A DNA stretch of 64,000 nucleotides from Planctomycetota bacterium (GTDB lineage Bacteria > Planctomycetota > Phycisphaerae > Phycisphaerales > Phycisphaeraceae), in the NCBI GenBank assembly GCA_024276075.1, contig JAJRXX010000037.1:1-64000 (forward strand). The letters run 5' to 3'. Both the position numbers and the translations under genes were made by a program. The notes beneath the pieces are model-generated. The model was not told the DNA's origin. It searched no databases and saw nothing but the letters and a program-made list of their open reading frames with translations. Of this stretch, positions 3,751 to 56,592 are shown piece after piece. How positions within the stretch are numbered: the first letter of the stretch is position 1; the number at the start of each line of letters is the position of its first letter.

Positions 3751-3873
3751 AGCAACTGGCGTCAATATTTTCCATCTTGATTGGATAGTAGGTGTAACAA
3801 ACATCTGTATTTCACGGCTTGCAAGCAAGCCGTGCCACCCGGTCAATGAAGATTATTTACGCCAGTTGCTCTA
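3748..3873. mobile_element. Family A inverted-repeat element (MITE-like), copy A1
   Basis: The termini are inverted repeats: GAGCAACTGGCGT at the left after TA, and its complement before TA at 3872-3873. The interior holds a perfect 10-bp hairpin at 3813-3834 (arms CACGGCTTGC and GCAAGCCGTG) followed by CCACCCGG. The element has no ORF. Bounding TA dinucleotides fit insertion by an IS630/Tc1-type transposase (inference). TA plus the first G of the element forms the TAG stop of the secretin gene. Related copies start at 30142 and 57616. Confidence 0.75.
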
Positions 3874-4109: not shown

Positions 4110-6725
<2,616 letters not shown>

Positions 6726-53261: not shown

Positions 53262-53922
53262 CCTATACCAATCCCACTTGAAACTTGTGCCTGTTTACGA
53301 ACGCCCGAGCATGACCAGCAATCACTTACGACACCTCCGACGCGCTAAAACATATGCAATGCGTATTAATCCCTGGAATCGTCAGCCCCATAACCCTAGC
53401 ACTGGACTAGGATCACGCGGGTGGTGCCTCGCCTCGACGCGGTATCAATCAGGCTCATCGGCGTGCGGGGGAACAAGCGTCACCGGAGGCTGGTCTTAGG
53501 GCATCATTCGGGACGGTAGCGGTTCGTTTCGGATCGGGGCTAACGGTTGTATGGGCGAACATTGACAGGGTTGGCCGAAGTGTAGCGTGGGTTGAGACGT
53601 GTTCCGATAAGGCGTGGGCGGCGGAAGGTGGGGGTGAGGCGCGCATGCGAGCGATGAGGTAATCGACCGAGTCGGTGAAATCGAGGCGGCGAACGAGCGT
53701 GTCGCGGTTACTCGGTGTGGATGTGGGTCTAATACCAATCCGGACAAATGCATACGCCATCGCTCTATCATGGGCATTGATGATACAACGACTTACCAAT
53801 TCTCCGACGCGCACAAAATATATGCAATGCGTATAAGATGTGTGCGTCGCGTGAACAGATGCCGAATCGAAAGCCGATGAGAGTGGGCAGCCGATAGGCC
53901 ACAAAGAGGACACCGATTAGCC
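53262..53922. repeat. Gene-free region with two family F elements
   Basis: F2 lies at 53264-53367 and F3 at 53730-53836. Both start TA-TACCAATC or AATACCAATC and end with the block CCGACGCGC...AAAA..TATGCAATGCGTAT. A third copy in reverse orientation is at 26881-26987. Each is about 105 bp and has no ORF. Between them lies GC-rich DNA (53370-53730) with no gene that I can support. The region also contains the divergent promoters of the glycosyltransferase operon and nuoB. Confidence 0.6.
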
Positions 53923-54489
53923 ATGGGATACGAAGCGGCATTGCCTACGGATAATTTCCTGACGACGCAGCTACAGCAGGTGGTGAACTGGTGCCGACGA
54001 TCGAGCCTGTGGCCGATGCCGTTTGCGACAGCGTGCTGCGGGATCGAGCTGATGGCCACGGCGAGCAGCCGATACGATTTGTCGCGATTCGGCGCTGAGG
54101 TGATGCGGTTCAGCCCGCGTCAGAGCGACCTGTTAATAGTGGCGGGGCGCGTGGCGATCAAGATGCTGCCTGTGCTGCAACGCATTTATCTGCAGATGAC
54201 CGAGCCGAAGTGGGTGATCTCGATGGGCGCGTGCGCGTCGACGGGGGGTGTGTTCGACACGTACGCGGTGGTGCAGGGCATCGATCAGTTCATCCCGGTA
54301 GACGTGTACGTGCCCGGCTGCCCGCCTCGGCCCGAGATGCTCATCGAAGGTGTGATGGCGATCCAACGGATTGTCGACCAAGACGGCCTACCACCGACGG
54401 GCGGTAAGCGTCACGCATTGAACGTAGCAATCGAGCCAACGCATACGGTCCAAGCGCAGCCGGTGGAGCTGACGGTCGGACGGTCGTAG
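53923..54489 (+). CDS. nuoB: NADH-quinone oxidoreductase subunit B
   Basis: The 188-residue protein carries the four ligands of the N2 [4Fe-4S] cluster of complex I: Cys38-Cys39 ([11 protein letters not shown]), Cys104 ([10 protein letters not shown]) and Cys133 ([12 protein letters not shown]). It is the subunit that passes electrons to quinone. In most genomes it lies in a nuoABCD run; here no other nuo gene is near, so it stands isolated. A second copy elsewhere, or a related hydrogenase small subunit, is possible, but the sequence is clearly NuoB-like. Confidence 0.93.
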
Positions 54490-54499
54490 GTTTTTCAGG

Positions 54500-54600
54500 T
54501 GGCCGATCCGCACAGTGGCCCCTACACCTTCTCACGGGTTGCTAGCAACCCGTGCCACCCGAATGTACAAATCTGTCCGGGCAGGGGCGGACCTACAAGA
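54500..54600. repeat. Tandem hairpin modules with CTAC and CCACCCG tags
   Basis: Three modules follow each other: GTGGCC-like arms then CCTACACC (about 54500-54528), a perfect hairpin at 54533-54554 with arms CACGGGTTGC/GCAACCCGTG and the tag CCACCCG, and GTCCG/CGGAC arms then CTACAAGAC (about 54572-54600). The order resembles the array at 18985-19045. No gene. Confidence 0.6.
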
Positions 54601-54635
54601 CTATTTGAGTGATCCACCTATCGCTGCTTAATTGT

Positions 54636-54848
54636 CTATCTATTTGCACCAGGTTTTTTGGGCTTGTGGTGTCGGCAGACGCCGCATTTGCCGCCGTCCT
54701 TGGCGCAGTGCTTGCAGCCTTTGCAGGTCTTGCATGCTTTGCAGTTGTTTGCGCCTGTGCACTTGGCGAGGTTGATCGTCGAGTGCACAGCCGACGCGGG
54801 GCACGCCAGGGCGGCTACGAGCAGTGCGATTGATATCCGAGTGTTCAT
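54636..54848 (-). CDS. Secreted cysteine-rich peptide
   Basis: The 70-residue product starts with a clear signal peptide (MNTRISIALLVAALACPASA) with cleavage expected after ASA. The mature part of about 50 residues has eight cysteines, most spaced CxxC (CKACKTCKGCKHC, later KCGVC), and ends in a basic HHKPKK tail. A perfect AAGGAGGTG lies eight bases before the ATG, the strongest ribosome site in the window, so it is well expressed. The pattern suggests metal binding or disulfide-rich structure, acting outside the cytoplasm. I do not know a named family for it. Confidence 0.8.
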   Translation of the reverse strand: MNTRISIALLVAALACPASAVHSTINLAKCTGANNCKACKTCKGCKHCAKDGGKCGVCRHHKPKKPGANR

Positions 54849-54912
54849 CGCGGAGCACCTCCTTCAAGATGTCCACCCGGAAATGGTGTATTACGGTCGT
54901 CTGAAATGACAA

Positions 54913-54998
54913 TGCCCGGGACAGGAGTCGAACCTGCAAGCGGTGTAACCCGCACCAGCACCTCAAGCTGGCGTGTCTGCCAATTCCACCACCCGGGC
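54913..54998 (-). tRNA. tRNA-Leu (anticodon GAG)
   Basis: The 86-base class II tRNA has the acceptor GCCCGGG, a long variable arm (GTGCGGGTTACACCGCT), anticodon stem CCAGC/GCTGG with loop TTGAGGT (anticodon GAG), T-arm GGTTCGACTCC and discriminator A. CCA is not encoded. It reads CUC and CUU codons. Confidence 0.95.
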
Positions 54999-55059
54999 GA
55001 AGCGGCTGTCAACCGGTATCAAGTATATCAAAGGTGATCAGCGGCTGAGAAGGCGTCGG

Positions 55060-55170
55060 CAAGGGTGTGCGGGACACGGTCATGGCAGATGCCGATGATA
55101 AGGGAGGTCCGCTCCCTGACGATCGCGCGCTCGTCGCAGTGACGGACGGATTCAAACTGACCCACAACCC
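55060..55170. repeat. Partial family D element D3 with shared core
   Basis: The core at 55109-55134 (GCTCCCTGACGATCGCGC) and the right end GGATTCAAACTGACCCAC match D2, but the left terminus CAGTTTGAAT is missing. The remnant lies between tRNA-Leu and lysC. Confidence 0.55.
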
Positions 55171-55272
55171 GGGGCAGGTGCGTGGTGATGCTATATTGCC
55201 AGCACGGTGTCACGGCGGGTACATTGTCTGGCTCGCAAATGAAACAAGGACGACTTCACACAGCGTAGAAGC

Positions 55273-56592
55273 ATGGGCACAAAGGTCTGTAAATTCGGGG
55301 GCACGTCGCTGGCGGACGGCAAGCAGCTACGCAAGGTGCAGGCGATCGTGCAGAACGACGGCGATCGTCGGTACGTGGTGCCTTCGGCGCCGGGCAAGCG
55401 CGGACCCGACGACCGCAAGATCACCGACCTGCTGTACCTGTGCCACGACCACGCGAAGCAGAACATCCCGTTCGACCAGGTGTTTAACCTGGTGGCTGAC
55501 CGGTATCGTCAGATCTTGGTTGAGCTGGACATGTGGTTCGACATCGCACCGCACCTGGAAAAGATTAAGGATGAGATCGCCGACGGTGCCAGCCGCGACT
55601 ATGCAGCGAGCCGGGGTGAGTACCTGTGCGGGCTGATCTTGGCTGAGCTGTTGGGGTACACGTTTATCGACGCGGCGGATGTGATCCGGTTCGACACGCG
55701 AGGACAATTTGATACAACGGCGACGGGACAGGCGCTGGGGCCGACGCTTCTCAAAACCGAGCCGGTGGTCATCCCAGGGTTTTACGGCGGTCTGCCGGAC
55801 GGTAGCGTCAAAACGTTTCCACGGGGTGGATCGGATATCACCGGCGCGGTCATCGCCCGTGCGATCGGGGCGGACGTATACGAAAACTGGACAGACGTGA
55901 ACGGGCTACTGATGGCAGACCCCTGCGTCGTAGACAACCCCAAGACGATCGAGACGATCACGTATCGTGAGTTGCGCGAGTTAGCCTACATGGGCGCGAC
56001 GGTGCTGCACGACGAGGCTGTTTTTCCGGTGCGCGACACGGGTATCCCGGTCAATATCCGTAACACCAACCAGCCCAACCACCCAGGAACGATGATCATT
56101 TCGTCACGGACGAAACCGATAACGCACGGTGGGACGATCACGGGCATCGCGGGCCGCAAAGACTTCACGGTCATCGCGGTGGAAAAGGCGCTGATGAACA
56201 AGGAACTGGGCTTTGGCAGACGCTTGCTGAACGTGCTGGAGGTGCACGGCGTGAGTTTCGAGCACATGCCCAGCGGGATCGACACGATGAGCGTGGTGGT
56301 CGCGGACGCTCAATTGAAGGGCAAGCTCGACACGATCCTCGAAGATATCCGCCACGAATGTCACCCCGACGTGCTGGAGGCGAACCCGCACATGGCGGTG
56401 ATCGCGACGGTGGGCCGAGGGATGGCGCACATTCCGGGTATGGCGGCGAAGCTGTTCACAGCACTGGCTGATGCGGGGGTGAATATCCGCATGATCGATC
56501 AGGGGTCAAGCGAAATTAATATCATCGTGGGCGTGGAGACGGCGGACTTTGAGGCGGCGGTGCGCGCGATCTACCGGGCGTTTGTCGAATAG
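55273..56592 (+). CDS. lysC: Aspartate kinase
   Basis: The 439-residue enzyme phosphorylates aspartate, the entry to lysine, threonine and methionine. It has the kinase start MGTKVCKFGGTSLADGKQ, SRGEYLCGLILAE, FPRGGSDITGAVIARAIGAD with the ENWTDVNGLLMADP segment, and two C-terminal ACT domains (FTVIAVEKALMNKELGFGRR and IATVGRGMAHIPGMAAKLF), the site of lysine or threonine feedback. It is a single-function kinase; homoserine dehydrogenase is not fused. It has no adjacent partner gene in the pathway. Confidence 0.96.
   Translation: MGTKVCKFGGTSLADGKQLRKVQAIVQNDGDRRYVVPSAPGKRGPDDRKITDLLYLCHDHAKQNIPFDQVFNLVADRYRQILVELDMWFDIAPHLEKIKDEIADGASRDYAASRGEYLCGLILAELLGYTFIDAADVIRFDTRGQFDTTATGQALGPTLLKTEPVVIPGFYGGLPDGSVKTFPRGGSDITGAVIARAIGADVYENWTDVNGLLMADPCVVDNPKTIETITYRELRELAYMGATVLHDEAVFPVRDTGIPVNIRNTNQPNHPGTMIISSRTKPITHGGTITGIAGRKDFTVIAVEKALMNKELGFGRRLLNVLEVHGVSFEHMPSGIDTMSVVVADAQLKGKLDTILEDIRHECHPDVLEANPHMAVIATVGRGMAHIPGMAAKLFTALADAGVNIRMIDQGSSEINIIVGVETADFEAAVRAIYRAFVE

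Follow-up and report, generated by a model that had tools for sequence, protein, structure and literature searches.

A short gene beside tRNA-Leu in a Planctomycetota genome encodes a predicted exported peptide that carries a small domain with eight invariant cysteines. We rate this domain as a new family, although small exported cysteine-rich modules are already a known kind. Its distribution is rare and patchy, and it extends across phyla and into phages. Tentatively, we favor a function in binding at the cell envelope. The stretch of DNA analyzed, 64,000 nucleotides in all, is called the window below.

The peptide gene and its surroundings

The gene (positions 54636 to 54848, minus strand) is a 70-amino-acid open reading frame (ORF) with an ATG start, RHHKPKKPGANR. 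Its product is laid out as a Sec-type signal peptide, the eight-cysteine domain, and a basic tail with an extra HH. The predicted signal peptide, MNTRISIALLVAALACPASA (residues 1 to 20; 54789 to 54848, minus strand), was called from hydropathy, with cleavage placed by the A-x-A rule; a 9-residue stretch at the N terminus has a mean hydropathy of 3.0, which 0 of 200 shuffles reached. The mature peptide would have about 50 residues and be essentially a single copy of a lysine-rich mini-domain. Eight of the nine cysteines lie in this mature part and one in the signal peptide. An alignment of 44 distinct cores delimits the eight-cysteine core, CTGANNCKACKTCKGCKHCAKDGGKCGVC (54675 to 54761, minus strand), as 29 residues with the pattern C-x5-C-x2-C-x2-C-x2-C-x2-C-x6-C-x2-C, including CxHC and GxCGVC. 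Since the same spacing occurs in homologues from other phyla, the ORF goes beyond chance, and judging from the sequence we take it to be a real gene. It is short and other frames are also open there, but with in-frame homologues, signs of purifying selection, and a strong ribosome site, a chance ORF has a negligible probability, and the conserved homologues rule it out. The initial annotation had proposed a real secreted peptide rich in Cys and Lys, and the homologues, the export-type start, and the eight mature cysteines bear this out.

The Shine-Dalgarno site, AAGGAGGTG (54856 to 54864, minus strand), was read directly from the sequence. It ends seven bases ahead of the ATG, with CTCCGCG as the spacer. 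AAGGAGG followed after 4 to 11 bases by ATG has a single occurrence on the two strands of the window, and AAGGAGG is found within 22 bases upstream of 0 of 30 window ORFs of at least 200 amino acids, a rough comparison in which ORF starts were taken mechanically. The motif is thus rare in the window, which makes the ribosome site of the peptide unusual there; it had been described as perfect, and the direct reading agrees. From this site, the peptide may be abundant.

As had also been stated, tRNA-Leu(GAG) is adjacent (54913 to 54998, minus strand), 64 bases upstream of the gene and on the same strand. A promoter-like match lies upstream of the tRNA, and no terminator-like site was found on the peptide strand. 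This arrangement allows joint transcription, so read-through from the tRNA into the peptide gene is possible. On the other side, a perfect 22-bp palindrome (54533 to 54554) separates the convergent nuoB and peptide genes and is possibly a two-way transcription end. Five related 22-bp palindromes are dispersed through the window (at 3813, 19011, 30192, 54533, and 57680; expected number, 0.00), each with at most three mismatches from CACGGGTTGCTAGCAACCCGTG; three of the five are identical, and all five possibly mark transcription ends. For the one at 54533 to 54554 we counted one exact copy in the genome. The "hairpin array" reported beside the gene was not confirmed: the region from 53400 to 55300 shows only four inverted pairs, among them this one perfect palindrome and a pair inside the peptide gene.

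The eight-cysteine domain recurs across phyla

A single-sequence search of 101 genomes (the peptide's own and 100 relatives) returned one strong relative, in genome G012 (E = 2.2e-15); the other two matches were weak and without the motif. A contig scan gave six loci, whose record titles read Bacteroidetes, Cytophagales, Betaproteobacteria, Phycisphaeraceae, Chthoniobacterales, and Parafilimonas; these taxa come from the titles, those of metagenome bins may err, and around the Betaproteobacteria copy the neighbors looked rather acidobacterial. Homologues with the same spacing lie at L006, L007, L008, L010, L011, and G012/L009; the Phycisphaeraceae locus L009 and G012 encode one and the same peptide. 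Among sampled genomes, the domain was present in 16 of 345 in the phylum of L006, Bacteroidota (one of them, G635, with a divergent form), in 4 of 297 in the phylum of L008, and in 3 of 240 in that of L010. For the peptide's own phylum, Planctomycetota, the count was 3 of 392, one without the motif, which leaves 2 motif-bearing genomes; its own class gave 2 of 327 sampled genomes. Small proteins with this spacing thus do exist in other planctomycetes, where the initial annotation would have looked for them, but they are rare there and commoner in the sampled Bacteroidota, and to think of it as a planctomycete peptide is therefore too narrow. Far from lacking conserved homologues, the peptide shares its eight-cysteine spacing with several phyla and with IMG/VR contigs.

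The eight cysteines are invariant across the 44 distinct cores, which were collected with a pattern that demanded eight Cys with CxxC steps and left two loops free (x3-6 and x3-12). Among 29 members, the spacing is x5,2,2,2,2,6,2 in 20 and x5,2,2,2,2,5,2 in 9. This gives C-x5-C-x2-C-x2-C-x2-C-x2-C-x5/6-C-x2-C after an exported N terminus as the family definition, and the window peptide has this form. The histidine of CxHC is kept in 41 of the 44 cores (the exceptions are L039, L095, and L107). Core net charge is positive in every one (44 of 44; +1 to +8), many Bacteroidota members being only weakly positive (+1 or +2). The N terminus is strongly hydrophobic in 28 of 29 members, a count biased by the choice of starts partly on hydrophobicity. 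We obtained dN/dS values of 0.13 for the window core against that of L009 and, over the full gene of the phage pair L042/L043, about 0.08; they are rough, with dS near saturation, and L008/L041 had diverged too far over the whole gene to yield a value. These ratios are signs that the domain may be under purifying selection. A divergent eight-cysteine version with an insertion (L038/L061, from G635) was left out of the alignments, and the weak matches L002, L004, L005, L015, L023, and L024 were dropped because they are without the eight-Cys motif. AlphaFold2 gave no usable fold, either for the full peptide (28 rows; pLDDT 61, pTM 0.22) or for the core only (44 rows; pLDDT 52, pTM 0.18), and we regard this failure of the model on a 29-residue Cys knot as uninformative.

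The statement that the peptide has no recognized family stands. Pfam and NCBIfam returned 0 families for it up to an E value of 1, and PHROGs had no match for it or, singly, for L042, L045, and L046. Phrog_1794 aligns to L012 at residues 82 to 184, most of which follow the Cys core; phrog_15341 matches four members, at positions within the proteins that were not located. Neither metallothionein nor Excalibur is among the best 25 of the 27 Pfam families for the 29 members. Matches to insect antifreeze protein (PF02420; 5 members, best E value of 0.0078) and FeoB_associated (1 member, E = 0.011) were judged compositional. When alignment A2 was searched against PDB sequences, SH3-type or chance matches appeared at C-terminal profile positions and none in the Cys part. 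A description of the domain was not found in the literature by peptide string or topic, in a coverage of mainly freely available papers.

Phage copies and origin in this genome

Three scans of IMG/VR combined gave 19 distinct contigs with the domain, an upper bound for phages because the peptide of L040 is identical to that of the Betaproteobacteria locus L008 and several other contigs are unchecked for viral genes. Mu-like phage genes are present in L042 (Portal_Mu and Phage_Mu_F) and L045 (Phage_Mu_F). In L042, L043, L044, and L045 the next gene also encodes a small exported protein, and these four proteins are homologous to one another; by eye L107 has the same arrangement. This second protein has no Pfam match in the Mu-like Bacteroidota phages L042 and L045. 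Both of these contigs also carry a reverse transcriptase (RVT_1 and PHROG matches in L042; by homology in L045), in the order reverse transcriptase, Cys peptide, second exported protein (L042:3726-5774 and L045:3191-5701). We suspect that this reverse transcriptase is of the diversity-generating type. In another genome of the same phylum (G460), a reverse transcriptase gene (L047:1109-2170) lies about 4.5 kb away from the gene of the Cys peptide; its product shares about 36% identity with the phage enzyme. A tblastn search of plasmids and phages gave one plasmid match and nothing beyond it, the BLAST low-complexity filter being able to hide such sequence.

We compared the window with other aspartate-kinase loci (30 fetched and 25 scanned, window included). 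Nine, the window among them, have tRNA-Leu(GAG) close to the kinase gene. The eight-Cys motif is absent from the other eight, seven of which are informative (L076 is not, as the locus ends just past the tRNA). In L068, L083, and L087 a stem and T-run directly follow the tRNA, by eye. The G012 copy sits elsewhere, beside PEMT/ICMT and PCMT genes. Because the seven informative relatives are without the peptide, the window gene is probably a laterally acquired accessory gene. Gain at the tRNA-Leu site is the simplest reading, and loss in the other relatives is possible instead. No duplication of the tRNA 3′ end that could serve as an att site was found in the window.

Fusions and gene neighborhoods

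Most members stand alone or have a short tail. SH3_3 is present in 8 of 29 members and also in L111; in the window peptide, Pfam finds none. In L117 a proline-rich linker connects the Cys domain with a nuclease of the SNase type (E = 1.9e-25); this gene lies at L117:3932-4672 on IMG/VR contig 3300042994_000012, which is metagenomic and viral. In L130 (G1393, of the same class), a 388-codon open frame on the minus strand runs from the Cys domain through a charged, coiled-coil-like linker to PLDc_2 (E = 4.7e-23). The SNase and PLD fusions are single cases, and the window peptide has neither domain. In the SH3b, SNase-type, and PLD-type proteins alike, the Cys domain is at the N terminus and the starts are of the export type. 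In the Hymenobacter monticola plasmid NZ_CP094535.1 (L012:5869-6435), the annotated SH3 gene MTP16_RS23570 (6220 to 6435) begins 351 bases downstream of a better ATG in the same frame, so that neither the signal peptide nor the eight-Cys domain is included.

In the 15 Bacteroidota stretches (L048 to L062), a sensor kinase/response regulator pair is near in 9, HSDR_N in 7, and TerB-like in 6, and this neighborhood looks like one recurring module. A TPR sensor kinase with a response regulator recurs in L050, L051, L052, L054, L056, L057, L058, L059, and L060; the module often also has HSDR_N, TerB-like, and DUF1508 proteins, a lipoprotein, and a coiled-coil membrane protein, and the Cys-domain gene lies within it or close by. 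PADLOC gave only weak matches for the module neighbors and no clear system. Across 101 neighboring proteins of cellular loci, HSDR_N tops the Pfam list with 6. Endonuclease/exonuclease/phosphatase-family genes lie a few genes away in L094 and L057, and one plasmid copy is near Qat genes. No partner gene is common to all loci.

Discussion

The reading that we prefer, though we hold it with less than even confidence, is that the domain is a cysteine-cross-linked basic binding module of the envelope, an adaptor rather than a metal sponge. The eight cysteines and the usual CxHC histidine would hold the 29 residues of the core together as a compact knot, through either a zinc-type metal-thiolate site or disulfides. 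The basic surface may then make the domain a binding head, with an anionic cell-surface partner such as an envelope polymer or nucleic acid. In the multidomain relatives, the Cys head would position the catalytic or SH3b domain, and the stand-alone window peptide would coat or shield the anionic partner. Its gene, probably an acquired accessory gene, would be expressed from its strong ribosome site behind tRNA-Leu. The adaptor reading is extrapolated from a minority, since most members stand alone or are short tailed. The SH3b fusions lend indirect support to one earlier proposal, that of a structural or cell-wall peptide.

The other earlier proposal, metal capture, we consider unlikely, though it deserves to be taken seriously. 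An exported metallothionein-like buffer would protect the cell by binding Cu, Zn, or Cd to reduced thiolates, either in the periplasm or outside. Several features would suit this: the 29 residues of the core include eight Cys, five of them in succession at CxxC spacing, and a nearly constant histidine, and the window tail adds an HH. However, a metallothionein Pfam match is absent, metal-resistance and transport families are missing from the 25 most frequent of 114 Pfam families for the 101 neighboring proteins, and fusions to nucleases and SH3b would be odd for a sponge. Exported thiols also face oxidation. A disulfide-rich conflict peptide, either antibacterial or a phage-borne factor of the surface or of superinfection, moved by phages and islands, strikes us as improbable. 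Carriage on the IMG/VR contigs fits it, as do the homologous second exported protein in the four Mu-like contigs tested, HSDR_N near Bacteroidota copies, and the plasmid copy near Qat genes. But no immunity, exporter, or processing gene was recognized beside the window copy, the PADLOC matches to neighbors are weak, and a generic module is what the fusions to SH3b and nuclease domains point to. It is because of these fusions and the lack of recognized metal genes nearby that we favor the binding head over both the metal buffer and the conflict peptide.

Quite improbable, in our estimate, is a more specific idea, that bacteria and phages have in this domain a common exported knot which binds nucleic acid or a polymer, is linked to nucleases, and acts at the surface on incoming or extracellular DNA. 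Its nuclease link is based on the SNase and PLD fusions, HSDR_N nearby in Bacteroidota, and the endonuclease/exonuclease/phosphatase genes in two loci, all taken as raw counts. If it were true, the window peptide, standing alone, would be a surface factor in minimal form that captures or shields DNA. Very unlikely is a bufferin-like RiPP route, in which an MNIO enzyme would modify the cysteines of the peptide as precursor. Bufferin precursors likewise have a Sec signal peptide and conserved Cys (PMC12452194), but MNIO (PF05114) is absent from the peptide's own genome; it is present in 5 of the 29 carrier genomes (own included), always on another contig than the peptide, and absent in 24, and DUF2282 is absent among the Pfam matches listed.

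This small domain has no Pfam, NCBIfam, or PHROGs model and keeps a rigid eight-Cys pattern across several phyla and phages. The SH3b, SNase, and PLD domains with which it is combined offer a concrete lead to the binding partner, and its size, 29 residues, puts its chemistry within direct reach. Annotation can cut such domains off, as in the Hymenobacter monticola plasmid SH3 gene.

Several known systems invite comparison. Conserved cysteines number four in Buf1 and six or twelve in Buf2, according to a paper on bufferins (PMC12452194). The window peptide resembles bufferins and other MNIO-modified exported RiPPs in joining a predicted Sec signal peptide, a trait necessary for such a precursor and not sufficient, to conserved Cys, and differs in its eight-Cys CxxC ladder and in having no MNIO on the same contig. 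SH3b envelope proteins are represented among the members that carry SH3_3, whereas the window peptide itself is without SH3b. Bacterial metallothioneins (SmtA/BmtA; Pfam Metallothio_Pro) are very small and Cys rich, with CxxC motifs and histidine. The window peptide is similar in all these respects, but it has a signal peptide, another spacing, and no Pfam match, and its relatives are fused to SH3b, SNase, or PLD domains. Excalibur, a small extracellular module that occurs with SNase-type nucleases, binds Ca through an acidic DxDxDG site. By this description, the eight-Cys domain is like Excalibur in being short and in lying beside a secreted nuclease or a surface domain; where Excalibur is acidic, the eight-Cys domain is basic.
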